Below are positions 1-12,489 of a DNA stretch of 41,446 bases, one piece after another (positions within the stretch are counted from its first letter, which is position 1; each line of letters begins with the position of its first letter). Below the pieces are notes generated by a model, which worked only from the letters and a program-made list of their open reading frames with translations, made no database searches and was not told where the DNA came from. The stretch comes from an uncultured Chloroflexota bacterium (GTDB lineage Bacteria; Chloroflexota; Anaerolineae; Anaerolineales; UBA4823): positions 1-41,446 of the forward strand of contig CAIQIV010000489.1 in the NCBI GenBank assembly GCA_903871905.1, written 5' to 3'. The translations under genes were made by a program, and so were the position numbers.

Positions 1-702
1 ATTCTTCCAGGCATTTTCCAGGTTTGCCTGGGCGACTTCCAGCTCATATTCATACTCCAGGCGTTTGATGGCCGAGTTGTAATCCGACTGCGCCTGGTCC
101 AGCAGGTCCTTTAGATCCTCACGCCTTTGATCGGTCGAATCATAGAATTTTACCTTGTCAAATGCAGCCCTGGCATCATCCAGGCGCTGTTTCATGGTTT
201 CCAGGGCGACGGTGATGGTCATCCCGGCCTGGTTGGAGGGGATGATGTAGTTATCCACCTGGAGCTGGGCATCCCGGAGGCTCTGCTCATAGGTCATAAT
301 ATCCTGCTGGGCTTTCAGGCGCGCCGTTTCGGCTTCAGTGTACAGGTCTTCCAGGGACTGTTGGGCGCTGACCAACTCTGCCTGAGCTGCAATGATGGTC
401 TGGGGGAGGGTAGTCTCTTTCAGGCGGGCCAGTACCTGTCCGGTGGTCACGGTATCGCCGACCTGAACTTCGACCGACTCGACTGTTCCCGATGTGCTCC
501 AGGCAAGCGTGGCAGTCTGATTGGGGCGCACGCTGCCTGTGGCGCTGACGGTAGAAACCAGGCTGCCTTTTTCCAGCGGGGCAGTCTCCAGTTTTGATTC
601 GGCTGCCTGGGCCTGCTGAGTGGCTCTATAGACAAAGAAGTAATACGCTCCACCCGCAATAACCAGGACTACTATTAATGCAAAGATGATTTTTTTGATC
701 AT
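1..702 (-). CDS. HlyD/MacA-type efflux periplasmic adaptor, 3' end outside window
   Basis: The minus strand reads as an uninterrupted 234-codon frame from ATG at 702 to the left edge, so the C-terminal part is missing. It starts MIKKIIFALIVVLVIAGG, an uncleaved N-terminal membrane anchor. A biotinyl-lipoyl-like half-motif follows at about residues 42-95 (ATGSVRPNQTATL, then VEVQVGDTVTTGQVLARL), then a long charged alpha-helical hairpin region. That order is typical of membrane fusion proteins (HlyD/MacA/RND adaptors), which link an inner-membrane ABC or RND pump to export. A GAGGAAAAG Shine-Dalgarno lies 5 nt before the start. The gene is divergent from a NarL-type two-component pair, a common arrangement for regulated efflux systems, so that pair may control it (inference). 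The pump gene itself would lie to the left. Family assignment is firm; substrate is unknown. Confidence 0.88.
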   Translation of the reverse strand, partial: MIKKIIFALIVVLVIAGGAYYFFVYRATQQAQAAESKLETAPLEKGSLVSTVSATGSVRPNQTATLAWSTSGTVESVEVQVGDTVTTGQVLARLKETTLPQTIIAAQAELVSAQQSLEDLYTEAETARLKAQQDIMTYEQSLRDAQLQVDNYIIPSNQAGMTITVALETMKQRLDDARAAFDKVKFYDSTDQRREDLKDLLDQAQSDYNSAIKRLEYEYELEVAQANLENAWKN

Positions 703-785
703 GCTTTCTTTTCCTCGACGTGCAAGATTCTCACGAAGGAGATCATACCTCACCATGCTCAGTTGGTAATAGTGTTCAGCGTAAC

Positions 786-817
786 CCCTTGTAAGGGAGG
801 CTTATGACTGTAGTCAT
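786..817. promoter_or_regulatory. Two adjacent inverted repeats, candidate operator
   Basis: The divergent intergenic region holds two back-to-back inverted repeats, each with a GT centre. They are CCCTT-GT-AAGGG (786-797) and ATGACT-GT-AGTCAT (804-817), with centres 19 bp apart, about two helical turns. NarL/LuxR-type response regulators bind short inverted repeats as dimers. The site between the adaptor gene and the two-component genes is therefore a plausible operator for the regulator encoded at 2144-2791. That link is inference. Only the symmetry is seen. Confidence 0.4.
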
Positions 818-859
818 ATCAGTTTGTTACGTCGGTCAATGCGCGTTTTGGAGAGAGTA

Positions 860-868
860 TGCTATGAT
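860..868 (+). promoter_or_regulatory. Extended -10 element, possible leaderless start for the histidine kinase
   Basis: TGC-TATGAT matches an extended -10. The next ATG at 876 lies 7 nt after the hexamer, where transcription would be expected to begin, so that ATG could start a leaderless message. This competes with ATG 864, which has GGAGAGAG 6 nt upstream but overlaps the proposed -10. Confidence 0.4.
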
Positions 869-2147
869 CTTGTTCATGCATAAACAGGAATTTGAACCCG
901 GGGTGCTGCAGGTTTTTCGCCTTTATGCCTGGTTGCAGACCGTCAGCTACCTGGTGCTGCCAGCATGGCGTTTGCTGTTTGACCGCAATATGCCCGATAT
1001 GTCCAGAAGCACCACGGACATATGGGCGTGGGTTCTGGTTACGTGTACGTATTCCATCCTTCTGCTCGTGATGCTGTATTGGACCTGGCTTCAGGAAAAG
1101 CTGGGTATATTCTTTATTCCGCTTGCAATCGGCCTTGCTACAGGCGGCTTGTTGTTGGACCAGCGCCTGTTTCATGGGCGGGCTTTGCCCTGGCAGGGAT
1201 ATCCATTTCTGACCATTCTGCTTATCCTGGTGGCCTGGCAGTATCGTTACCGTTACGTGGCCCTCTTTACACTGGGGATAGCTGCCTTTGAAACAGTTCT
1301 CAACCAGCTTTTCCCGGCACCGCTTTTTATCCGCGCCCCAGGACCTGATTCAGATCCTCAATCATCCTATGCTTTCCTGGCAGCCTATGCATTCTTATTG
1401 GCAAATACAGTAACCTTCCTGGTTATAGGTTACGTGGTAAACCGCCTGGTCAGTGCACAGCGTAAACAGCGCCAGGCCCTGGCTGAAGCAAATCAGAAGC
1501 TGATCAGCCATGCAGCGACGTTAGAGCAGTTGGCTGCCAGCCGGGAACGTGTGCGCCTTTCGCGCGAACTGCATGATACCCTGGCGCACACATTGAGTGC
1601 CCAGACAGTCCAGATTGAGGCAGTGTTGACTTACGGGGAGGCTATCCCAGCCCGTGCTAGAAACATGTTGGAGCAGATGTTAGATGCCACGCGCAATGGT
1701 TTGGACGAGACACGGCGGGTGCTCAGCGCGCTGCGCCCATCTGTGTTGGAGAGTCTGGGACTCCCGGCGGCGGTTAAAGCCCGGGCGCAGGACTGCGCTG
1801 ACCGTGCAGGGTTAAAATTACACATTGAAATAACTGATGAACTGGATGACCTGCCAGCAGAGGTGGAACAGTGTTTCTACCGCGTGGCACAGGAAGCTCT
1901 GGAAAATATCGCTCGCCATGCCGAAGCCACGCGATTAGAAGTGTATTTGACCCAACAGAAAGGGCATTTGCAGTTGATAGTGAGCGATGATGGGAAGGGT
2001 TTTACTTCCAGGCAGATCCAGGCAGACGACCAACTGGGGCTGCGCGGGATGCATGAACGAGCGGAGCTGATTGGAGCCGGGCTCGATGTGGACAGCCAGC
2101 CTGACAGGGGAACACGAGTACGGTTGGAGTGGCAGGCGAAACCATGA
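864..2147 (+). CDS. NarL-type sensor histidine kinase (HisKA_3)
   Basis: This is a membrane sensor kinase of the NarL/DesK/LiaS class, 427 aa from ATG 864. Several hydrophobic segments fill residues about 20-195, including the stretches around 53-73, 82-98, 114-125, 131-145 and 169-192. A coiled linker at about 195-228 leads to the HisKA_3 dimerisation motif RLSRELHDTLAHTLSAQ, with the phosphoacceptor His237. A HATPase_c domain occupies about 330-427, with N-box EALENIARHAEA and G-boxes DDGKG and GLRGMHERAELIGA. There is no recognisable periplasmic ligand domain, so sensing may be intramembrane. An in-frame ATG at 804 lies inside an inverted repeat and lacks a ribosome site. ATG 864 has GGAGAGAG upstream, and ATG 876 is a leaderless alternative. 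The stop overlaps the response-regulator start as ATGA, so the pair is translationally coupled. The signal is unknown. Confidence 0.9.
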   Translation: MILFMHKQEFEPGVLQVFRLYAWLQTVSYLVLPAWRLLFDRNMPDMSRSTTDIWAWVLVTCTYSILLLVMLYWTWLQEKLGIFFIPLAIGLATGGLLLDQRLFHGRALPWQGYPFLTILLILVAWQYRYRYVALFTLGIAAFETVLNQLFPAPLFIRAPGPDSDPQSSYAFLAAYAFLLANTVTFLVIGYVVNRLVSAQRKQRQALAEANQKLISHAATLEQLAASRERVRLSRELHDTLAHTLSAQTVQIEAVLTYGEAIPARARNMLEQMLDATRNGLDETRRVLSALRPSVLESLGLPAAVKARAQDCADRAGLKLHIEITDELDDLPAEVEQCFYRVAQEALENIARHAEATRLEVYLTQQKGHLQLIVSDDGKGFTSRQIQADDQLGLRGMHERAELIGAGLDVDSQPDRGTRVRLEWQAKP

Positions 2148-2791
2148 TTCGGGTATTGGTTTGTGATGACCAGGCGGTCGTGTGTGATGGATTGGAGATG
2201 ATCCTTGACGCTGATCCGGAGATTGAGGTGGTGGGGGTGGCATACGATGGAGTAGAGGCCCTGGAGAAGATATCCAGGACGCGCCCCGATGTGGTATTGA
2301 TGGACTTAAAAATGCCCGGGATGAACGGTATTCAAGCCACGCGGCATATTCACCAGGATTACCCGGAGGTCCGGGTGTTGGTGCTCACTACTTTCGGGGA
2401 TGACGAATGGGTGTTTGACGCGATACGCAGTGGGGCTGCGGGCTACCTGCTCAAGGGTACGCCGCGGCAGGAGCTTGTTCGGGCAGTTAAGGGAACTGCG
2501 GCAGGGGGGACGCATGTTGATCCGGCAGTCGCCGGGAAATTGTTCGCGCATGTCGCCCAATCGCCTGCACATGCTGAAACGACGCTGGTCAGCGATTTGA
2601 GTGAGCGGGAAATTGAGGTTCTGCAGCTTCTTGCTCAGGGGCTGACCAACGCTGAAATTGCAGACCGCCTGTTCCTCACCCGGGGAACCGTGCGCAACTA
2701 TGTCAGCTCTATCCTGGCTAAGCTGGGGGTTGAGGACCGCACCCAGGCGGCTCTTGCTGCCGCCCGTTATGGTTTCATCGCCAAGGATTAA
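2144..2791 (+). CDS. NarL/LuxR-family response regulator
   Basis: This is a DNA-binding response regulator of 215 aa, partner of the kinase immediately upstream (ATGA overlap at 2144-2147). The receiver domain (about 1-120) has the acidic pair Asp8-Asp9, phosphoacceptor Asp54 in VVLMDLKMPGMNG, the switch Thr in VLVLTTFGD and the conserved Lys in YLLKGT. A LuxR-type helix-turn-helix follows near the C-terminus (LSEREIEVLQLLAQGLTN, then AEIADRLFLTRGTVRNYVS). ATG 2144 is preferred over an in-frame ATG at 2129 because it gives the standard domain start MIRVLVCDD and the coupling overlap. A likely target is the divergent efflux adaptor, by position only. The gene converges with the cyclase gene, with 12 nt between the stop codons. 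Confidence 0.93.
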   Translation: MIRVLVCDDQAVVCDGLEMILDADPEIEVVGVAYDGVEALEKISRTRPDVVLMDLKMPGMNGIQATRHIHQDYPEVRVLVLTTFGDDEWVFDAIRSGAAGYLLKGTPRQELVRAVKGTAAGGTHVDPAVAGKLFAHVAQSPAHAETTLVSDLSEREIEVLQLLAQGLTNAEIADRLFLTRGTVRNYVSSILAKLGVEDRTQAALAAARYGFIAKD

Positions 2792-2803
2792 CAAAAACAG
2801 GGA

Positions 2804-5800
2804 TTATTTCAATAACTCTGCGCTTAAAGCCTGAAGTTTATCGGTTTCCAGACCAGCCCCCAGTTGGTTGAAAATTTCCCGGGCCTGCGACAAGAACTGT
2901 TGTACCTGTTCGTAATTTTGACTGGCATGCGCCAGGCGCGCCAGGCTGACGTAAGATCGCCCCAACTCAAGTGGATTGTGGATGGTTTCGAACACTTTAA
3001 TGCTTTGCTGGAGAAGCTCTTCTGAGCGCGGGTAATCCTGCTGAGCCAGGGCCACTTCTCCCAGCAGTCGTAATACCCAGCCCTGGTTTTCATCCGGAGC
3101 AGCAGGCCCGGCTTCTGACTGGGAACACAGCTTGTAAGCTTTATCGGAAACCAGCATTGCCTGTTCCAATTCTCCTAACCCCAAATAGGCCATTCCCAGG
3201 TAAGTGTTTGCTATGACCAGGTCATCCTGTGCGCCGATTTCCTCCAGGATTTGCAAACTCCGGTTGCCAAAATCCAGCGCATCCTGCCAGTTCTCGACCA
3301 GAATGGAAACGCGCGCCAGGTAGAGGTAAGCCAAACCGACGTGATAGGTGTGGCCAATCTGGCCTGCAATCGCGGCGGCTTTTTGGAGTTGAAGGGTTGC
3401 TTCCGGCACGTTCCCGCTGTCTAATTGAAGCAGACCCAGGTTGATCTGCACCTCGATCGTGCCCTCAACGTCACCCAGGTTCAAGTGCAGCTCCATGCTG
3501 CGGTTGAAGTTCTCCCGGGCAGCGTCCCAATCGCCTTGTTTCCAATTGAGCAGCCCAAGGTTATTGTAAGAGCGCGCCACTGCGACAGTATCTCCAGCCT
3601 CCTGCCGCAGTTCGAGGCTTTTGCGAACAAATTCGCTGGCCTGGTTAAGCTGGTCTTTCTGGTAGTACACCCCACCCAGGCGGTTATAGATGGAAGCCAG
3701 AACATCAAAACGTGGGGTATTTTCCAGAAGCGAGAGAGCGTCAATGAAGCTTTCCTGTGCATCGTCCAGGTTCCCGCGCCTGAACTGGATCCACCCGATG
3801 TCGTTCAGGATCAGGGCGTTTTCTTCGGGGGCAGGCTTATGCAGCTCGATCAGGATGTCTTGAGCGACAGAAAGGTCTTCAATGGCCTGCTCATATTCCC
3901 CCTGCCGTTCGAAGGTGATACCTACCTTGCGTCGCAGGGCGCTGCGCTCCTGGATATAGTCGGCTGGCTCCTGGTTCCCGATCAACTCCAGGGCTTGCAG
4001 GTAATGCTGGCGCGCCTGGGGGTATTCACCGGCCAGCACCAGGATATCTCCCAGGCCCATGTGAACCTGCAATTCCTGGTGGGGAGAGTGTTTGACTTTG
4101 GATAGGAGCTGCAAGGCTTCTTCGAAATGCTGTCGCGCCTGAGAGTTGGCATATCCCAATGCCGCTTTTTGCCCAGCCAGGATCAGATAATGCAGCGCGC
4201 GGTCCAGGCGGCTGCTGGCAGAAAAATGCCGGGCCAGGATTTCCACCTGTTCGTCCAGGCAATATTGGTAAATTGTCTCAATGGCTTCGGCTACCTGTTG
4301 GTGCATCTTGCGCCGGTCACGCTTGAGCAGCGTTGAATAGATAGCGTCGACCATTAAGATGTGGCGGAAGATATAGTTTTGTGCAACAGGGCTGGTAGGC
4401 GGGATCAGGAACTCACGTTCCACCAGTGTATCCAGCACATTTTCCGGCAGCGGCTGTTGGAGAACCTGGTTCAATACCGGCAGGCTGAAATCTTTGCCAA
4501 TCACTGCGGCTACCTGCAGGGTATGGCGGTGCAGGCTGCCCAGCCGGTCAAAGCGGGCCAGGACCAGTCCCTGGACGGTGTCTGGAACCCCCAGGTCTTC
4601 CAGGTTGGTTCCCGGGGTTACGCGCCAATGACCGTCCTCACGTTGGATAGCGCCCTGGTCCAGCAGCATGCGCAAAGTTTCTTCCAGGTAGAGGGGGATA
4701 CCTGCTGACCGCTGCAGGATCTGGCTGCGCAAGGACTGCGGGAGGTCGCGGATAGCCATCAACTCAAAAAGCAGGACTTCCGTCTGATCTGGGGACAGGC
4801 TGTGCAGTGGGATCAGATAAAAATTTGTTCCCAGGTTGTGCTGCGCCCACTCTACAGCCTGGTCTAGTGGCCCGGCCTGGACCTGGCGAGAGATGCCCAG
4901 GATGAAGATGGGCGCAAGCCGCAGAGCTTCAAGCAGAAAACGGAGCAGTTCCAGGGAGGCTTCGTCTGCCCAGTGCAAATCTTCCAGGATCAGCAGCACC
5001 GGGTGCTGCCTGGCTGCGCTGATAAGCAGGCTGCGCACCGCCAGAAAAGTTTGCTTTCGCAGCTGGCCGGCCTCTAAAAAAGCAATGCGGTCAGCCGATG
5101 CCGGATCGGAAAATGGCAAGGACAACAGGTTTTCTAGCAATGGAAGAATTGCAGCCGCCCGTCTTCCCATGAGAGCTGTGACTGATTCGTGCAGCCGCTG
5201 TCGGGTCATCTCGACAGGAGTTCCAGGGGTAATGTTCAGAAGATGGAACAGCACACCCTGGAAGACACCGTAGGAAATAGCGTGGCGGTGCGCCATGCTC
5301 TGGCCTTCCAGTACCTGGATGCCAGCCGGGTCAAGACTTTTACGAAACTCAGTAGTCAGGCGGCTTTTTCCCAGGCCCGCCTCACCCGTGATCAATCCAA
5401 ACTGACCACGCTCGTGATTGTATAGATCGTTGAGTGCCAGCTTGAGCTGGTTCAGCTCTTTTTCGCGCCCGATCATGGGGGCATGCAGACCCTCAATGCC
5501 GCGCACCCGCCCAGGGGCTGCTTTGGCTCCCAATATGCGGTAACTGTTGATGGCTTTACTGATACCCTTGAGCTGAAGACCAGAAAAAACCTGATAATCA
5601 AACAGGGCGCGGGTCTGGCGGTAAACACTTTCGCTGACCAGGGTTGTACCGGGCTGCGCGGCCTCCTCCAGGCGGTGAGCAAGGTTAACCGTATCGCCAA
5701 TGGCGGTGTAGTTCATCAGGAGGTTCGATCCAATCCCTCCGACAACTACTTCGCCCGAATTGAGACCGATGTGCATTCTCAAGTCCTGACCCAGTTGTGG

Positions 5801-6274
5801 AAAAAGCTCATGGCTAAGCTGGGACACGTCTTTTTGCATATCCAGGGCAGCGAGGCAGGCTCGTTCAGCATTATTCTCATGCATGATGGGCGCGCCAAAT
5901 AAAGCCATCAGGCCATCACCAGTCAGCTTGTCTACAATTCCCTCGTATTTATAAACACAATTGACCAACAGGTGGATATAGCGCTGGATCAGCTCGAATA
6001 TTTCTTCGCTGTCCATGCGCTCAGAAAGGGATGTATAGCCTGTCAGGTCAGCGAACAGGATGGTCACATTACGCCGCTGTCCGGAAGCCTCTATCCCAGC
6101 GCGGCGCAGACGCTCTGCCAGGTCAGCGCCCATCATCACCCCCAGTGTCTGGGATAGCTGCTCGGCCGGCGGGGTCTGCGAGGGGGCCTGGACCTCCAGG
6201 CGAGTTCCGCAGTTTCCGCAGAAGCGCATACCAGGGGGATTATCGAAGCCACATTGGTTGCAGTGTGTAGTCAT
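2804..6274 (-). CDS. Class III nucleotidyl cyclase - AAA ATPase - TPR regulator
   Basis: This is a 1156-aa multidomain signalling protein. A zinc ribbon opens it (Cys5, Cys8, Cys19, Cys22). A class III adenylate/guanylate cyclase domain follows (about 67-250) with metal-binding Asp76 (FADLTGYT) and Asp120 (DKLTGDGLMALFG), Lys116, and the Asn197/Arg201 pair in IGDTVNLAHR. The catalytic set therefore looks intact. An AAA/STAND-type ATPase is next, with Walker A GEAGLGKS (297-304) and Walker B VLLILEDLHWAD. The C-terminal half is a long array of TPR repeats (for example RSYNNLGLLNWKQGDWDAA). The architecture is common in Chloroflexota, Cyanobacteria and Actinobacteria as a soluble signal integrator; the product cNMP and ligand are not determinable. 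ATG 6274 is chosen over TTG 6310 because it begins the zinc ribbon; neither has a Shine-Dalgarno. Its promoter overlaps that of rplU. Confidence 0.92.
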   Translation of the reverse strand: MTTHCNQCGFDNPPGMRFCGNCGTRLEVQAPSQTPPAEQLSQTLGVMMGADLAERLRRAGIEASGQRRNVTILFADLTGYTSLSERMDSEEIFELIQRYIHLLVNCVYKYEGIVDKLTGDGLMALFGAPIMHENNAERACLAALDMQKDVSQLSHELFPQLGQDLRMHIGLNSGEVVVGGIGSNLLMNYTAIGDTVNLAHRLEEAAQPGTTLVSESVYRQTRALFDYQVFSGLQLKGISKAINSYRILGAKAAPGRVRGIEGLHAPMIGREKELNQLKLALNDLYNHERGQFGLITGEAGLGKSRLTTEFRKSLDPAGIQVLEGQSMAHRHAISYGVFQGVLFHLLNITPGTPVEMTRQRLHESVTALMGRRAAAILPLLENLLSLPFSDPASADRIAFLEAGQLRKQTFLAVRSLLISAARQHPVLLILEDLHWADEASLELLRFLLEALRLAPIFILGISRQVQAGPLDQAVEWAQHNLGTNFYLIPLHSLSPDQTEVLLFELMAIRDLPQSLRSQILQRSAGIPLYLEETLRMLLDQGAIQREDGHWRVTPGTNLEDLGVPDTVQGLVLARFDRLGSLHRHTLQVAAVIGKDFSLPVLNQVLQQPLPENVLDTLVEREFLIPPTSPVAQNYIFRHILMVDAIYSTLLKRDRRKMHQQVAEAIETIYQYCLDEQVEILARHFSASSRLDRALHYLILAGQKAALGYANSQARQHFEEALQLLSKVKHSPHQELQVHMGLGDILVLAGEYPQARQHYLQALELIGNQEPADYIQERSALRRKVGITFERQGEYEQAIEDLSVAQDILIELHKPAPEENALILNDIGWIQFRRGNLDDAQESFIDALSLLENTPRFDVLASIYNRLGGVYYQKDQLNQASEFVRKSLELRQEAGDTVAVARSYNNLGLLNWKQGDWDAARENFNRSMELHLNLGDVEGTIEVQINLGLLQLDSGNVPEATLQLQKAAAIAGQIGHTYHVGLAYLYLARVSILVENWQDALDFGNRSLQILEEIGAQDDLVIANTYLGMAYLGLGELEQAMLVSDKAYKLCSQSEAGPAAPDENQGWVLRLLGEVALAQQDYPRSEELLQQSIKVFETIHNPLELGRSYVSLARLAHASQNYEQVQQFLSQAREIFNQLGAGLETDKLQALSAELLK

Positions 6275-6282
6275 GATGATCG

Positions 6283-6318
6283 TTAAAAGCGGTTCGAAAT
6301 GAGTTGACAATCTGACAT
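6283..6318 (-). other. Possible 11-codon leader ORF upstream of the cyclase gene
   Basis: On the minus strand an ATG (first base 6318) lies 6 nt after a TATAAT hexamer. It opens a short frame, MSDCQLISNRF, ending at TAA 8 nt before the cyclase ATG at 6274. The cyclase start lacks a Shine-Dalgarno, so reinitiation after this short ORF is conceivable. The ORF is too short for coding statistics, so it is only a candidate. Confidence 0.2.
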
Positions 6319-6332
6319 AAGGTAATTATAAT
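6304..6332 (+). promoter_or_regulatory. Consensus sigma70-type promoter of rplU-rpmA-rpmE
   Basis: TTGACA (6304-6309), a 17-nt spacer and TATAAT (6327-6332) form a perfect consensus housekeeping promoter on the plus strand. Transcription would start near 6339, giving a leader of about 150 nt before rplU. A minus-strand TATAAT (6330-6325) for the cyclase gene shares bases with this -10 hexamer. Confidence 0.85.
6325..6330 (-). promoter_or_regulatory. -10 hexamer of the cyclase gene overlapping the rplU promoter
   Basis: The minus strand reads TATAAT here, sharing four base pairs with the plus-strand rplU -10. No good minus-strand -35 is visible at 17-nt spacing (CTGCCG). The two polymerases could not occupy the site together. 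Confidence 0.5.
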
Positions 6333-6342
6333 TCAACCTCAC

Positions 6343-6444
6343 TGCCCCGGCAGCCATTTGCTGGGGCAAAATCTTGCCTGAAATCTCCAACTTCCCCATC
6401 GAGCGGCGCAGTGTTGGTGTTGCAGATCTGAAATGGAACAGATC
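6343..6444 (+). promoter_or_regulatory. Structured 5' leader of the L21 operon
   Basis: The leader of about 150 nt between the rplU promoter and its ATG contains two hairpins. The first pairs TGCCCC (6343-6348) with GGGGCA (6363-6368) and has an inner AGC/GCT stem. The second pairs GATCTG (6425-6430) with CAGATC (6439-6444). L21 operon leaders that bind a ribosomal protein are known in Firmicutes. Whether this leader plays that role is inference, and neither hairpin is followed by a U-run. Confidence 0.35.
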
Positions 6445-6488
6445 CTGGTGCGGCTGGGATGGTGAAGTGAAGATTGGAGGAATGAAAA

Positions 6489-6809
6489 ATGAAGTATGCT
6501 ATTGTTGAAGACGGCGGGAAGCAGTACAAAGCCGTCGAAGGCGGTTACATTGATGTTGACCGCTTTGCAGCCGAAGCAGGTGATGCGGTTGACTTGAGCC
6601 GTGTCCTGTTGGTGGCGGATGGTGATGCGGTGCTGGTAGGCACCCCTGTGGTTGCAGGCGCCAAGGTGCAGGCGACCGTGGTTGAGGAAGTGAAAGGCCC
6701 CAAGGTGATTGTGTTCAAATACCGGCCTAAGAAGCGGTACCGTGTGAAGACCGGTCACCGCCAGAAGTATACTCGATTGCAGATTCATTCTATCACCGTG
6801 GGAGAGTGA
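6489..6809 (+). CDS. rplU: 50S ribosomal protein L21
   Basis: The 106-aa product has the usual length of bL21, a small beta-barrel protein that binds 23S rRNA domain I beside L20. It opens with the family signature [19 protein letters not shown]. It ends with the basic rRNA-binding stretch [19 protein letters not shown] followed by LQIHSI. A GGAGG Shine-Dalgarno (6476-6480) precedes the ATG by 8 nt. It is the first gene of rplU-rpmA-rpmE under a consensus promoter. In many bacteria rplU-rpmA is followed by obg; here L31 follows. Confidence 0.98.
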
Positions 6810-6816
6810 GGTAGAT

Positions 6817-7089
6817 ATGGCGCACAAGAAAGGTGGCGGTTCCAGCCGCAACGGTCGTGACAGTAAAGGTCAGCGCCTGGGTGTGAAGAAGTTTAGCGGT
6901 GAATTTGTTCGTTCCGGCAATATCCTGGTCCGCCAGCGCGGGACGCACATCAAGCCAGGCGAGAATGTTGACATTGGTAAAGATGATACCCTGTTTGCCA
7001 CGGTGGATGGTACCGTGGTCTTTGAGACCATTCGCGATGACCGTAAACGCGTCAAAGTGGTCCCTGTGGCGCAGCAGGTTGAGGAATAA
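6817..7089 (+). CDS. rpmA: 50S ribosomal protein L27
   Basis: The 90-aa product is a standard bL27, whose N-terminal arm reaches the peptidyl-transferase centre. It begins [20 protein letters not shown], so the mature-type N-terminus is encoded directly. There is no cleavable extension of the kind that needs the Prp protease in Firmicutes. The conserved core [20 protein letters not shown] and [11 protein letters not shown] is present. It sits 7 nt after rplU with a GAGAGTGAGG ribosome-binding stretch at the junction, so the two are co-expressed. Confidence 0.98.
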
Positions 7090-7146
7090 CATTGGGCGGT
7101 AGCGCTGTTCAACAGCGCACTGCAAAGATGTGTTGAGGAAATTGAG

Positions 7147-7620
7147 ATGAAACAAGGTATTCACCCCAACTATTACCCGGATGCGAAGGTGATCTGTGCA
7201 TGTGGTAACACCTGGAACACGGGTTCTACCAAGAAGGTGATCCACACGGATGTGTGCTCGAAGTGTCACCCTTTCTACACCGGTGAGCAGCGCATTGTGG
7301 ACACTGAAGGCCAGGTTGATCGCTTCTATAAGAAGCTGCAAGCCCGCCAGCAGTATGTACAGGAACTGGAAGCCCGCGAAGCGGCACGCACCTCTCTTGA
7401 CCGGTCAATCACAGAACTCAACCTGGGTGAGCGCGCCAATGAAGCGTTGGCTAAGGCTGGCATCACTACGGTTGGTCATGCCCTGGATAAGCTTTCACAG
7501 GGTGAGAGCGGCCTGCTGGCTATTGATGGCTTTGGGCGAAAGTCGCTGGCTGACCTTAAAAAGAGGCTGCGCCAGTTCGGTTATGACCTGCCCGAAGCGG
7601 CAGAGGAGATTATCGTCTGA
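7147..7620 (+). CDS. rpmE: Ribosomal protein L31 fused to an RNA polymerase alpha-CTD-like domain
   Basis: Residues 1-68 are a zinc-binding bL31: Cys17, Cys19, Cys37 and Cys40 occur in CACGNTWNT and [12 protein letters not shown], and VDRFYKK ends the domain. Ordinary L31 is about 65-75 aa, but this frame runs unbroken to 157 aa. After a charged helical linker (about 69-85), residues 86-147 read like the C-terminal domain of RNA polymerase alpha: [26 protein letters not shown], then [14 protein letters not shown]. By eye Arg96 matches E. coli alpha Arg265, and Gly130, Lys132 and Ser133 match Gly296, Lys298 and Ser299. Asn268 is replaced by Glu. The L31 part is certain and the fold of the tail is a strong inference. 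The gene follows rpmA and precedes a terminator and tdk. Confidence 0.93.
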
Positions 7621-7644
7621 TCCGGGTGGTTCTTCACCAGGCTT

Positions 7645-7688
7645 ATCAGCCGGCTGATCGTGATTGCGACCGCACAGGCGGTCGCAAT
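7645..7688 (+). terminator. Terminator after the ribosomal protein operon
   Basis: A perfect 11-bp stem, ATTGCGACCGC (7663-7673) with GCGGTCGCAAT (7678-7688), encloses the tetraloop ACAG and is followed by a weak TACTTTA tract. A perfect 14-bp palindrome, ATCAGCCGGCTGAT (7645-7658), lies just before it. The position after rpmE and before the tdk promoter fits transcription termination. Confidence 0.75.
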
Positions 7689-7712
7689 TACTTTAACCCA
7701 CCTGAATCGCGG

Positions 7713-7718
7713 TACAAT
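7713..7718 (+). promoter_or_regulatory. Probable -10 element of tdk
   Basis: TACAAT lies 40 nt before the tdk ATG and just after the rpmE terminator hairpin. No convincing -35 is visible at 16-18 nt spacing. Confidence 0.4.
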
Positions 7719-7758
7719 AACGATCATTCCCCCACAATTTTGAAGGCAAGGATTGTGA

Positions 7759-8334
7759 ATGAAACATCATACTGGCTCAATAGAAGTGATCACTGGTTCG
7801 ATGTTTAGTGGCAAGACAGATGAACTGATCCGTCGTCTGCGGCGCGCCACGATTGCCCGCCAAAAAGTGCAGGTTTTCAAGCCAGCCATTGATAACCGGT
7901 ATGCGGTAGAAAAGGTCACCTCCCACGCAGGCAGTGATTTTGCAGCACAGCCTGTGCGCAGTGCGAGCGAAATCTCTGTTCAAATGGTAAAAGGGACTAC
8001 CGTTGTAGCGATCGATGAGGCCCAATTTTTTGATGTGGGGATCATTGCGATATGCCAGGCTATGGCGGATCGCGGTATTCGCGTGATTGTGGCTGGTTTG
8101 GATACTGATTTCCGTGGGGAGCCGTTTGGTCCCATGCCGGTGTTGATGGCCCAGGCAGAAGTTGTGGATAAGTTACATGCCATATGCATGGTATGTGGTG
8201 AGCCAGCCAGCCGCACACAGCGCCTGATCGACGGCCGGCCAGCTAATTATGAAGATCCCGTGGTGGTGGTGGGCGCATCTGAATTGTATGAGGCGCGCTG
8301 TCGCAAGCACCACGAGGTTCCTCGCAACCTATAA
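7759..8334 (+). CDS. tdk: Thymidine kinase, type II
   Basis: This enzyme phosphorylates thymidine to dTMP in pyrimidine salvage. The 191-aa length is normal for the zinc-containing tetrameric class. The P-loop GSMFSGKT spans residues 13-20. The Walker B-like IDEAQFF carries the catalytic base Glu87, and the lasso-domain zinc ligands are Cys143, Cys146, Cys181 and His184. ATG 7759 has AAGG 11-15 nt upstream. The rpmE-tdk adjacency is also found in Bacillus. Together with hpt just downstream it makes a small nucleotide-salvage block. Confidence 0.97.
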
Positions 8335-8351
8335 CCCTCGGAAGGTGAAAG

Positions 8352-8906
8352 ATGCAAGATTATCGTGAATACCTGGATGAGATCCTGGTTTCATCAGATC
8401 AGCTGCAGACGCGGATCAAGGAGATGGGTGACCAGATCAGCCGTGATTATGCTGGCCAGACTCTGCATTTGATTTGCATTTTGCGCGGTGGCGTGTTATT
8501 CCTCACGGACCTGATGCGGCACATCACGGTGCCGCTGACCATTGACTTCATGGCTGTTTCTTCCTATGGGGTGAACCGCCAGAGCACTGGCCAGGTGCGC
8601 ATCACGCTGGACCTTGAAAGACAGATCCAGAACCTGAACGTCATGCTGGTGGAAGATATTGTTGACAGCGGGTATACCATCTCTGCAGTGCTGGATGTGC
8701 TGCGCACGCGACATCCCCGGTCACTGCGGGTGTGTACCCTGCTGGATAAGCCGGAACGGCGTGAAGTGGATGTGCCCATCGATTACCGAGGATTCTCCAT
8801 TGCCAACAAGTTTGTCTTTGGGTATGGGCTGGACATGGATGAGTATTACCGCAACCTGCCCTTTATCGCCACGGTTGATCTAAAGCGTTATCGCCCAGAC
8901 GGATAG
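8352..8906 (+). CDS. hpt: Hypoxanthine phosphoribosyltransferase
   Basis: This purine-salvage enzyme transfers phosphoribose from PRPP to hypoxanthine or guanine. The 184-aa length is typical. Visible motifs are ICILRGGVLFLTDL (PPi-binding loop), the flexible-loop region VSSYG, and the PRPP motif VMLVEDIVDSGYT with Glu101/Asp102 and Asp105. The C-terminal segment DYRGFSIANKFVFGYGLDMD supplies the base-stacking aromatic and binding Asp. A GGAAGGTGAAAG ribosome site precedes the ATG, and the gene starts 17 nt after tdk. In many bacteria hpt neighbours tilS/ftsH; here the cca-type gene follows after 9 nt. Confidence 0.97.
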   Translation: MQDYREYLDEILVSSDQLQTRIKEMGDQISRDYAGQTLHLICILRGGVLFLTDLMRHITVPLTIDFMAVSSYGVNRQSTGQVRITLDLERQIQNLNVMLVEDIVDSGYTISAVLDVLRTRHPRSLRVCTLLDKPERREVDVPIDYRGFSIANKFVFGYGLDMDEYYRNLPFIATVDLKRYRPDG

Positions 8907-8915
8907 AGGCGCGGT

Positions 8916-10397
8916 TTGTACCATCTTGAAGATCTGCTTGCCCAGGTTAGATCTGCGCTCCCCCGGCGGAAGGTTTATCTGGTCGGTGGTGCGGTGCGGG
9001 ATATGCTGCTGGGGCGCCCGGTCCACGATCTGGACTTTGTCCTGGGAAGTGGCACCATTCGTTCAAGCCGCCAGGTGGCCGATGCGTTGGGTGGGGCGTT
9101 CTTTGCCCTGGATGCAGAGCGAGATATGGGTCGGGTGATCCTGGTCAATCCTGGGGGAGAGCGGATGAAACTTGACTTTGCCGCGCTGCGCGGGGCGGAC
9201 CTTGAGAATGATCTTCGCCTGCGCGATTTTACTATTAATGCCATGGCTGTCGATATTGACCACCCGGAAGTGGTGCTCGACCCCCTGGGAGGGGCGGCGG
9301 ACCTGCGACAGGGGGTTATTCGTCAGTGTACATCCAGCGCCCTTGCTGATGACCCGGTGCGAATCTTGCGTGGAATACGCCAGTCGGTAGAATTTGGTTT
9401 TCGCATTCACCCTGAAACCATTCGCCTGATACGCCAATCTGCCCTGTTGCTCCCGTCTGTTTCTCCTGAACGCCTGAGGGATGAACTGTTCCATGTCTTT
9501 GAGGGTCCCCAGCCTGCCACGGCTCTGCGCGTCCTGGATACCCTGGGTATCCTGCCTTATATTCTTCCAGAACTTCCAGCTTTGAAAGGCGTTCAGCAAT
9601 CGGCCCCGCATGTCTCCGATGTGTGGACGCACACGCTGGATGTCATTCAGCGTTTGAACCAGGTGCTGCAGGTTCTTGACCTGGTCCCGGATGAAGAAAA
9701 TTCTGCTAACCTGGCTATGGGGCTGCTTTCTGTGCGCCTGGGACGTTATCGCCAGCAGATTCATAAGCATCTGGAACAATCATTGAACCCTGATCGATCG
9801 CTGCGCGGGCTTTTAGTGATGGCAGCGTTGTATCATGATGTGGCCAAGCCTGTTACCCGCCTGGTAGAACCGGGCGGTCGGGTGCGCTTCTTTGAACACG
9901 AACAGCGTGGCGCCTGGACCGTTTCAGAGCGCGCCCAAGAGCTGCGGTTGAGTAATGATGAAACCGGGCGGCTGCGCACAATTATTCACGGACACCTGCG
10001 CCCAATTCTGTTGGCACAGGTGGAGCAAGGCCCTTCCAATCGGGCAGTCTACCACTTCTTCCGAGATACTGGCCTGGCTGGGGTGGATATCTGCCTGCTC
10101 TCGCTGGCAGATGTGCTGGCGACTTATGGACCCGACCTGCCGCAGGATGTATGGAAAAGACAATTGGATGTTGTCAGGACATTATTAGAGGCCTGGTGGG
10201 AGAAGCCGGAGGAAAGAGTCTCTCCCCCGGCGTTGATTAACGGGACTGTGCTGATGCATGAATTTGGCTTGCAGCCTGGCCCTAAGATTGGGCAGCTCCT
10301 GGATGCTGTGCGTGAAGCCCAGGTCACTGCTCAGGTACATACCCGCCAGCAGGCACTGGACTTCGTACGCCAAAAATTGGAATCAGGGGTGGATTAA
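8916..10397 (+). CDS. cca: CCA tRNA nucleotidyltransferase / poly(A) polymerase family with HD domain
   Basis: The product adds or repairs the CCA end of tRNAs, or is a related class II nucleotidyltransferase. The head domain shows VYLVGGAVRDMLLGRPVHDLDF, with the G-S-like turn and the catalytic D-x-D, then the neck motif LRDFTINAMAVD and the ERLRDEL region. A C-terminal HD domain follows: LYHDVAKPVTRL, then IIHGHLRP. The 493-aa length suits HD-carrying CCA enzymes of the long bacterial class. TTG 8916 is chosen as the start because AGAGG lies 6 nt upstream and no in-frame ATG occurs before the VGGAVRD motif. The gene starts 9 nt after hpt. Its 3' end overlaps the convergent zinc-ribbon gene by 4 nt. 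CCA-adding versus A-adding specificity cannot be read here. Confidence 0.9.
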   Translation: MYHLEDLLAQVRSALPRRKVYLVGGAVRDMLLGRPVHDLDFVLGSGTIRSSRQVADALGGAFFALDAERDMGRVILVNPGGERMKLDFAALRGADLENDLRLRDFTINAMAVDIDHPEVVLDPLGGAADLRQGVIRQCTSSALADDPVRILRGIRQSVEFGFRIHPETIRLIRQSALLLPSVSPERLRDELFHVFEGPQPATALRVLDTLGILPYILPELPALKGVQQSAPHVSDVWTHTLDVIQRLNQVLQVLDLVPDEENSANLAMGLLSVRLGRYRQQIHKHLEQSLNPDRSLRGLLVMAALYHDVAKPVTRLVEPGGRVRFFEHEQRGAWTVSERAQELRLSNDETGRLRTIIHGHLRPILLAQVEQGPSNRAVYHFFRDTGLAGVDICLLSLADVLATYGPDLPQDVWKRQLDVVRTLLEAWWEKPEERVSPPALINGTVLMHEFGLQPGPKIGQLLDAVREAQVTAQVHTRQQALDFVRQKLESGVD

Positions 10398-10690
10398 GGG
10401 AAGATCTCTTCCAGGAAGGGCAGGTAAAAGCAGCGGCAGCCCAGGCTGTGTGAGCAACCCTCTACCGGCAGGACAGGAACCTGATCTTTAGGATATGCCC
10501 CTTCGACCTCATGGCACGCAGGGCAGCAGTTGGCATCTACCATTAACCGCACATATTTTACTCGCGGGTTTTCCTTAAATTGTTTAAGGGCCACAGCTGT
10601 ATTAGACCATTCACTCAAATCAGCCTGGCAGTTCACACACACAGCCGCCGTGTCCGGCGATTGGGCAGAGCATTTTGAACAGATCTGCAC
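10394..10690 (-). CDS. Small zinc-ribbon protein of unknown function
   Basis: The 98-aa product begins QICSKCSAQSPDTAAVCVNC after its start residue, a double CxxC zinc ribbon (Cys4, Cys7, Cys18, Cys21). A second Cys cluster follows (ANCCPACHEVEGAY, then EGCSHSLGCRCFYLPFLEEI), so at least two metal sites are likely. The C-terminal part looks like a short DUF-type ribbon seen in Chloroflexota, but I do not recognise a named family. The start is GTG 10690 with AGGAGG 7 nt upstream. Its promoter TTGAAG-N17-TAGAAT lies at 10746-10718. The stop codon overlaps the end of the convergent cca gene. A regulatory or scaffold role is possible; no enzyme motif is visible. Confidence 0.82.
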   Translation of the reverse strand: MQICSKCSAQSPDTAAVCVNCQADLSEWSNTAVALKQFKENPRVKYVRLMVDANCCPACHEVEGAYPKDQVPVLPVEGCSHSLGCRCFYLPFLEEIFP

Positions 10691-10717
10691 GACGAGCCTC
10701 CTGTGAAGATTTTCCCT

Positions 10718-10746
10718 ATTCTAACCTAACTTGATGTAGTCTTCAA
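10718..10746 (-). promoter_or_regulatory. Promoter of the zinc-ribbon gene
   Basis: Reading the minus strand, TTGAAG (10746-10741), a 17-nt spacer and TAGAAT (10723-10718) form a good sigma70-type promoter. The -35 lies in the last codons of the PEP synthase/PPDK regulator gene. Confidence 0.55.
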
Positions 10747-11573
10747 TCCAACAATCCAGAATCCAGCGGTTTGCGGTTGTAACGGCCAATTAGAGAAACG
10801 ACTTCTGCCGCAGTCTCTTCGATGGACTTGGCGGTAACATCCACCAGCGGCCAATCCCGGCGGCGGTCAAAGATTTCGTAAGCATAGGCTACCTCCCGGC
10901 GGATGTGTTCCAGGTCGGCGTACCCTTTGTCTTGAGTTCCCAGGCGCAGAGCGCGTATCTTTCGGAAATCAACCAATTGTTCTACCCGCGCAACCAGGGC
11001 AATTACCCGGCCGCGCGGCACGCTGAACAGTTCCTCGGGAGGCTCTACACCCAGCATCAAAGGGACATTGGCCACGCGCCAGCCGCGAAAAGAGAGATAA
11101 ATACTGAGCGGGGTCTTGGATGTGCGCGAGACACCTACCAGGATAATCTCTGCCAGGTCCAACTCATGGGTATTGTGCCCATCATCATGATGGAAGGTGA
11201 AATCGATGGCATCGATGCGTCGCAGGTAGGCAGAATCAAAGGGCTGGAACAACCCAGGTTCAGAGCGCGGCTGGATGGAGAGCAGCTCGGAGAGGCGCGC
11301 CAACAATGGTCCCATCAAGTCAATGGTGGTGATGTTGGCCGCACGCCCTTCGGTGAATATCAGGTGGCGCAAGGTATCCGATACCAGTGTGTGGACGATG
11401 ATCCCCTTTTTCTTCTCGGCCTCCTGTATTACAGCATGCACCTGCTCCGGGGTGCGCACCCCTCCATGGCGACTGATAGAGATAGCCTGACCGGTGAACT
11501 GCGTCAGGGCGGCGCGAATCACGTTTTCTGCCGTGCCGCCGGTGGCATCTGAGACAGCGAAAACATGGATCAT
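10743..11573 (-). CDS. ppsR: PEP synthase / pyruvate phosphate dikinase regulatory protein (kinase-pyrophosphorylase)
   Basis: This bifunctional protein phosphorylates PEP synthase or PPDK on Thr using ADP and reverses the modification by Pi-dependent pyrophosphorolysis. The 276-aa length is normal. Signatures are HVFAVSDATGGTAE at the N-terminus and the P-loop GVSRTSKT (147-154) followed by PLSIYLS. The family tail includes YADLEHIRREVAYAYEIF and PLVDVTAKSIEETA. ATG 11573 is chosen because it gives the standard N-terminus and has AGGAGGG 6-7 nt upstream; an upstream in-frame start would add 23 unrelated residues. The probable target class is encoded in part at the right edge of the window, but that gene is not adjacent. 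Whether the true substrate is PPS or PPDK is unresolved. Confidence 0.95.
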   Translation of the reverse strand: MIHVFAVSDATGGTAENVIRAALTQFTGQAISISRHGGVRTPEQVHAVIQEAEKKKGIIVHTLVSDTLRHLIFTEGRAANITTIDLMGPLLARLSELLSIQPRSEPGLFQPFDSAYLRRIDAIDFTFHHDDGHNTHELDLAEIILVGVSRTSKTPLSIYLSFRGWRVANVPLMLGVEPPEELFSVPRGRVIALVARVEQLVDFRKIRALRLGTQDKGYADLEHIRREVAYAYEIFDRRRDWPLVDVTAKSIEETAAEVVSLIGRYNRKPLDSGLLD

Positions 11574-11668
11574 GGGTGCCCTCCTAATCGCATATCTGAG
11601 GTAGAATAGTTTTATTACTTTCTCGATGAAAGGCAGAATCACAGGTGTTCCTGTGGTTAATTTAATTG

Positions 11669-11674
11669 TATAGT
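11669..11674 (+). promoter_or_regulatory. -10-like element very close to the surE start
   Basis: TATAGT lies 2 nt before ATG 11677 and 5 nt before the second ATG at 11680. There is no Shine-Dalgarno upstream, which suggests leaderless transcription from near 11680. Confidence 0.35.
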
Positions 11675-11676
11675 AA

Positions 11677-12489
11677 ATGATGCAAAAAACAACTCAAATA
11701 CTGTTGACGAATGATGATGGCATCCAGTCTCCAGGACTCATGGCGGCTGCAGGAGCGTTGAGTGCATTGGGTTATGTGACAGTGGCAGCCCCCCGCGACC
11801 AGTTTTCTGGTGCTGGTCGCAGTCTGCCCAGTACCTCAGATGGCCTGATCCATCCCCGGCAGGCTGGGGTAAATGGGGGGATGTGGCAGGTGTATGCGGT
11901 TGGTGGGACACCGGCGCAGGTTGTGCTGCACGCGGTATTAGAGATCCTGCCCGTAAAGCCGGATCTGGTTGTTTCGGGGATTAATTTCGGCGAGAATGTT
12001 GGCAGCGGTGTAACTATCTCTGGAACAGTTGGCGCGGCACTGGAAGCTGCAGCAATGGGGATGCAATCGTTGGCGGTATCGCTGGAGACGGATCCCCGGC
12101 ACCATCTTTCTTATTCGTCAGAGGTGGATTTCTCCACAGCCGCGTTCTTTACTGCCTATTTCGCCCGTTTACTGCTGGACCGGAAAATGCCACCCGATGT
12201 GGATGTATTGAAAGTGGACGTTCCGTGTGATGCCACATCAGAAACCCCCTGGGAAATGACCCGCCTGTCGCGTATGCGCTATTATGAGCCCATACCGCCG
12301 GCGCGCACCTCCTGGGAAACCCCGGCATCGGTTGGCTATCACTTGGCGTGTTGTCCGGAGGAAGACGCTCCCGATACGGATGTCTATGTACTGAGAGTCA
12401 AGCGGCACGTGGCAGTGACGCCAATCAGCCTGGATATGACCTCTCGGGTAGATTTGCAGGAATTTGACCGCCTGCTGCGCAACGGGTAA
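11677..12489 (+). CDS. surE: 5'/3'-nucleotidase SurE
   Basis: This metal-dependent nucleoside monophosphate phosphatase takes part in survival and nucleotide turnover. The 270-aa length fits. The N-terminal metal-binding motif ILLTNDDGIQSPG carries the paired Asp residues. The conserved loop SGINFGENVGSGVTISGTVG, followed by AALEAA, contains the family's Asn/Gly-rich active site. The typical AAPRDQFSGAGRS segment is present. Two tandem ATGs (11677, 11680) lie just after a TATAGT, with no ribosome-binding site. The gene is divergent from ppsR with 103 nt between starts, and convergent with the inositol-phosphatase gene with 21 nt between stops. Confidence 0.95.
   Translation: MMQKTTQILLTNDDGIQSPGLMAAAGALSALGYVTVAAPRDQFSGAGRSLPSTSDGLIHPRQAGVNGGMWQVYAVGGTPAQVVLHAVLEILPVKPDLVVSGINFGENVGSGVTISGTVGAALEAAAMGMQSLAVSLETDPRHHLSYSSEVDFSTAAFFTAYFARLLLDRKMPPDVDVLKVDVPCDATSETPWEMTRLSRMRYYEPIPPARTSWETPASVGYHLACCPEEDAPDTDVYVLRVKRHVAVTPISLDMTSRVDLQEFDRLLRNG

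Follow-up and report, generated by a model that had tools for sequence, protein, structure and literature searches.

A conserved RNA with a predicted structure lies between the promoter and the rplU gene (ribosomal protein L21) of an uncultured Chloroflexota bacterium of the order Anaerolineales, and this RNA is most likely an unlisted L21 leader. The stretch of DNA that was analysed, referred to here as the window, is 41,446 nucleotides long. We consider it probable that a strong promoter is followed here by a conserved leader acting as a translational-feedback RNA of L21, with L21 as the putative ligand from the position of its gene, and that the cyclase gene running away from rplU is often its neighbour in the family and no part of the leader device. 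The features of the region are given in Table 1. Relatives were compared at 130 rplU loci, comprising 33 loci from the family, 78 further loci from the order and 19 from other orders of the class. The family was searched in 38 genomes, 34 of which yielded an rplU gene, and one locus at a contig edge was left out.

Table 1. Features around rplU, with positions in the window and strand.
Feature	Position	Strand	Description
Zinc-ribbon / class III cyclase / AAA ATPase / TPR protein gene, divergent from rplU	2804..6274	-	favoured ATG start at 6274
Consensus sigma-70-type rplU promoter	6304..6332	+	TTGACA 6304-6309, 17-base spacer, TATAAT 6327-6332
Minus-strand TATAAT	6325..6330	-	four-base overlap with the plus-strand -10; -35 with 3/6 matches; in 5/22 divergent loci
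rplU leader RNA (predicted)	6337..6479	+	matches the whole of covariance model R1, 85.6 bits (this leader, L002, was among the 37 sequences used to train R1)
P1, 5' hairpin of the leader (predicted)	6343..6368	+	begins a few bases past the expected start at about 6339 (start inferred)
Outer leader helix, 5' strand (predicted)	6387..6397	+	CCAA 6387-6390, CTTC 6391-6394, C mismatch, CC
Variable inner helix and conserved GC...GC core (predicted)	6398..6460	+	from alignment and covariation
Outer leader helix, 3' strand (predicted)	6461..6477	+	GG, U mismatch, GAAG 6464-6467, bulge TGAAGA 6468-6473, TTGG 6474-6477
Shine-Dalgarno GGAGG of rplU	6476..6480	+	leading GG paired when the leader is closed
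rplU, ribosomal protein L21	6489..6809	+	PF00829
rpmA, ribosomal protein L27	6817..7089	+	PF01016
rpmE-like, L31 fused to RNA polymerase alpha C-terminal domain	7147..7620	+	PF01197 + PF03118

The sequence-only reading of the window had described a perfect TTGACA-N17-TATAAT on the plus strand as the promoter of the ribosomal operon, and both parts of this description hold. The site is present upstream of the L21, L27 and L31 genes and is the sole one with 12 of 12 consensus bases among the nine promoter-like sites listed in window positions 1-12000. The strict 12/12 promoter is found in all 33 family loci, with a spacer of 17 bases in 31 of them and 18 bases in two, and this includes the 12 family loci that gave no cyclase hit (two of which have fewer than 800 bases upstream). 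The exact TTGACA-N17-TATAAT pattern occurs 22 times in the bacterium's own genome (G000, 6.1 Mb) compared with once for the reversed pattern; the consensus thus seems to be in general use in this genome, and the rplU promoter seems to be one of a set. As judged from the sequence, it is a strong, ordinary promoter of an rplU-rpmA-L31 mRNA. The rplU gene is the first of the operon, followed by rpmA and then by the L31 gene, and the E. coli rplU-rpmA operon has the same L21-L27 gene order; in a passage of a review, the E. coli operon is reported to be unresponsive to its products (PMC10931766). In 13 of 61 class genomes, own genome included, the best match to the L31 fusion protein of the window extends to residue 143 of 157 or beyond. 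In one class relative (genome G111, L261 277-816), L21 itself is fused to the RNA polymerase alpha C-terminal domain (PF00829 and PF03118); a third match in this protein, TLV_coat, is below its cut-off and presumably arises by chance.

The structure proposed for the leader is derived from an alignment. A rough motif matched 82 of the 130 loci, and 37 short, alignable leaders, all from the order, were chosen by hand. RNAalifold folded these leaders into a hairpin at the 5' end followed by a long helix, with double changes in 12 of 21 pairs. Four outer pairs (CCAA with UUGG) were added to this structure by hand; taken on their own, they are paired in 85.1% of cells and two of the four have double changes. 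In the full structure 93.2% of the cells are paired versus 83.6% in shuffled alignments, and double changes are seen in 14 of 25 pairs and in 89 cells versus 28.3 shuffled. None of five covariation measures was reached by any of 500 shuffles. Related rows can beat such shuffles without any structure, and the slid registers thus matter too; sliding the register lowers the paired cells to 37-47%. In the leader alignment 16 columns are invariant and another 16 nearly so; several of these columns fall in the GC core and the bulge strand, and the pairs between them vary freely. When the window leader was folded by itself, it did better than shuffled sequences, with a z value of -2.5 and 3 of 200 shuffles as good. 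A pairing of GGGG in P1 with CCCC before the core was considered as well and rejected, as the two are not associated (40, 11, 21 and 6 loci; Fisher p 1.0).

The covariance model R1 was used to follow the leader among relatives. At E<=0.001, a threshold to be taken as rough since these E-values depend on the number of bases searched each time, R1 matches 94 of the 111 order loci (37 of which are its training rows), including all 33 family loci, and two of the 19 loci from other orders of the class. Of the 17 order loci that R1 misses, nine are from genus g192 of family f65 (L061, L063, L064, L065, L067, L068, L071, L093 and L094). A hairpin like P1 is kept in all nine and the strict promoter in eight, and from these sequences the long bulged helix seems to have been lost in this genus. 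Other f65 loci do match R1 (L075, L078, L095 and L098). Whole genomes were also searched with R1 under stricter filters, with which weak matches are lost. In the class, 24 of 298 genomes have a match, one each, and comparison of coordinates showed that all 24 directly precede rplU; 21 are from the same order, own genome included, and three from others. In the phylum, 27 of 301 genomes have one match each, all from the same order. A context-free scan of genome_contigs (84,980 genomes) with a motif returned 77 records, which are not wholly independent, as the pattern was built from the leaders of the order, two isolates occur twice and overlap with the loci already examined is likely. All 77 titles are of Chloroflexota, with Chloroflexi/Chloroflexota or Anaerolineae-type names plus Aquidulcis and Villigracilaceae. 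The rplU gene lies within 60 bases downstream in 76 of the 77 records, and the remaining record (L219) stops 37 bases on, at the contig end. The strict promoter is upstream in 72 of the 76 records with rplU; of the remaining four, three have TTGACG and one lies on a contig that is cut off. In the samples searched, the predicted leader is confined to one order and a few relatives.

How does this RNA compare with the leaders already catalogued? It occupies the 5' UTR ahead of a ribosomal protein gene and its structure is backed by covariation, two features of ribosomal protein leaders, and it would probably act as other such leaders do. No family of Rfam 15 matches it, and nothing in the window reaches a gathering score. 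At E<=10, positions 6270-6560 of the window give three chance-level matches to other families, and L21_leader is not among them. The loci of 14 relatives searched at E<=0.5 give four matches, none at the leader and none to L21_leader. The Rfam L21_leader, which we take to be RF00559 with its home in Firmicutes, is likewise a 5' leader RNA of the rplU operon; however, its covariance model matches neither the window leader (E<=10) nor the 14 relatives' loci (E<=0.5). The four matches in the relatives include a sub-threshold L20_leader hit at L021 2547-2677. Ribosomal protein leaders such as the 20 candidates of PMC7247131 are likewise covarying RNAs directly before a ribosomal protein gene and near the ribosome-binding site. 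The main text of that paper contains neither 'L21' nor 'Chloroflexi', and 'rplU' appears there in the reference list only; the main texts of three further papers on RNA discovery (PMC2864571, PMC11109978 and PMC8632094) name neither L21 nor rplU. No report of the leader was found in the mostly open-access literature searched.

A mechanism can be suggested from the arrangement of the predicted helices. The mRNA would start near 6339, and P1 would fold first. The long bulged helix would then close; its UUGG (6474-6477) overlaps the Shine-Dalgarno sequence, and the pairing would sequester this stretch, including the first two Shine-Dalgarno bases. We infer that free L21, when in excess over 23S rRNA, would bind the conserved bulged helix and keep it closed. 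Ribosome entry would be blocked by the closed helix, and L21, plus L27 and L31 encoded downstream, would in this way be realigned with rRNA. Control at the level of translation is likelier than attenuation because no terminator-like site between the promoter and rplU is among the sites listed for window positions 1-12000. Several points count against this mechanism: just two Shine-Dalgarno bases would be paired, through outer pairs that were placed by hand, the E. coli operon is reported to be unresponsive, 17 order loci lack an R1 match, and the aligned rows were a hand-made selection.

The identity of the ligand was approached through the 23S rRNA. By eye, GAAGUGA of the leader resembles a stretch of domain II, which we take to be helix 46, contacting L21. 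When five leader segments were compared with the 23S rRNAs of two relatives by local alignment, nothing beyond chance was obtained (p 0.29 to 0.88), a negative result for mimicry at the sequence level; one segment aligned best to that domain II stretch in both rRNAs (p 0.55 and 0.68). In passages of two papers, bL21 is named together with uL13 and bL20, beside H41 or with missing domain II helices (PMC9687910, PMC10460392). Since the sequence comparison gave nothing beyond chance, it is from gene position only that L21 is put forward as the ligand. A more specific proposal is that the bulged helix mimics the 23S rRNA site of L21 in shape and not in sequence, and that the resulting L21-binding switch sets L21, L27 and L31 to the supply of rRNA; this is offered tentatively and we regard it as rather doubtful.

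The leader might instead be a regulatory RNA with a ligand other than L21, for example L20, L27 or some other factor. The failure to find the 23S rRNA site in the leader by sequence, together with the naming of L21 from the position of its gene, leaves room for such a ligand, but rplU is directly next in 76 of 77 records and is the first gene of the operon in the window, and we think that another ligand is unlikely. It has also been considered that the structure works with no ligand, P1 shielding the mRNA at its 5' end and the efficiency of translation being set by the long helix. The position of P1, a few bases past the expected start, would suit a protective role, as would the retention of a similar hairpin in all nine g192 loci that lack the long helix. 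However, the invariant and nearly invariant columns of the bulge strand and GC core stand amid pairs that change freely, and this argues for recognition, making a ligand-free structure quite unlikely. A translational-feedback RNA with L21 as the putative ligand is the reading that we prefer.

The remaining question concerns the divergent cyclase gene. Its start is favoured to be the ATG at 6274 over an alternative TTG at 6310, as the alignment of cyclase homologues begins at the first residue encoded from the ATG in 20 of 21 loci and at residue 4 in the remaining one. The sequence-only reading had proposed that the promoters of rplU and the cyclase share a -10 tract, that initiation from them is mutually exclusive, and that ribosomal protein synthesis is in this manner linked to expression of a signalling enzyme. 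The minus-strand TATAAT is indeed the reverse complement of 6325-6330, with the four-base overlap that had been claimed, and this shared site outscores every other minus-strand promoter-like site before the cyclase in the window. The best minus-strand -35 at 16-18 bases, for which the earlier reading had named no sequence, is CTGCCG, with three of six matches; it has another possible cause because it is the reverse complement of CGGCAG inside the P1 hairpin. As TATA is its own reverse complement, just the two bases AT before TATAAT are needed to create the overlapping minus hexamer, and AT is found there in 11 of the 114 loci that have TTGAC[AT]-N16-18-TATAAT. A switch-like promoter feature can thus be a by-product of a self-complementary -10 box.

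Of the 130 rplU loci, 22 (the window included) were found to have a divergent cyclase, 21 of them in the family, and this count may be low because 68 of the 130 loci have fewer than 700 bases upstream. The sequence-only reading had suggested that the region be compared in related genomes, where loss of the minus hexamer would speak against it, and the hexamer is mostly not conserved: at the 22 divergent loci it reads TATAAT in five and TATACT in two, and the final T is absent in 15 and present in seven. The shared site is the top minus-strand promoter-like site in six of the 22 and ties for first place in L028. Loci with a cyclase have AT before TATAAT more often than the others (5/22 versus 6/92, Fisher p 0.036), but four of the five loci that keep the hexamer (L010, L016, L028 and L128) have CTATTATAATTCAGCCCGC in common, and L030 also carries CTATTATAATTCAGCCCGC yet has no cyclase hit within 1500 bases. 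In genus g19, the best minus site in five of six loci (L018, L026, L027, L031 and L069; not L127) is CATAGT or TATAGT. It is located 46 bases off the shared site and 12 bases from the start of the cyclase gene, and its -35, GTGTCA, falls opposite the rplU -35 on the other strand. Both hexamers and their overlap are real features of the window; their conservation beside the cyclase fails, and a conserved switch coupling ribosome synthesis to signalling is left unsupported. The two promoters are not kept together at the 22 divergent loci, and a shared -10 that makes the rplU and cyclase starts mutually exclusive is rejected as very unlikely. There may be weak minus-strand use of the shared site in this one genome.

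Leaders have evolved repeatedly in ribosomal protein operons, and each new one is another way for RNA to recognise a ribosomal protein. If the leader described here does bind L21 by mimicking the shape of its rRNA site, it would be, according to Rfam 15 and the literature searched, the first feedback RNA for L21 to be described from Chloroflexota.
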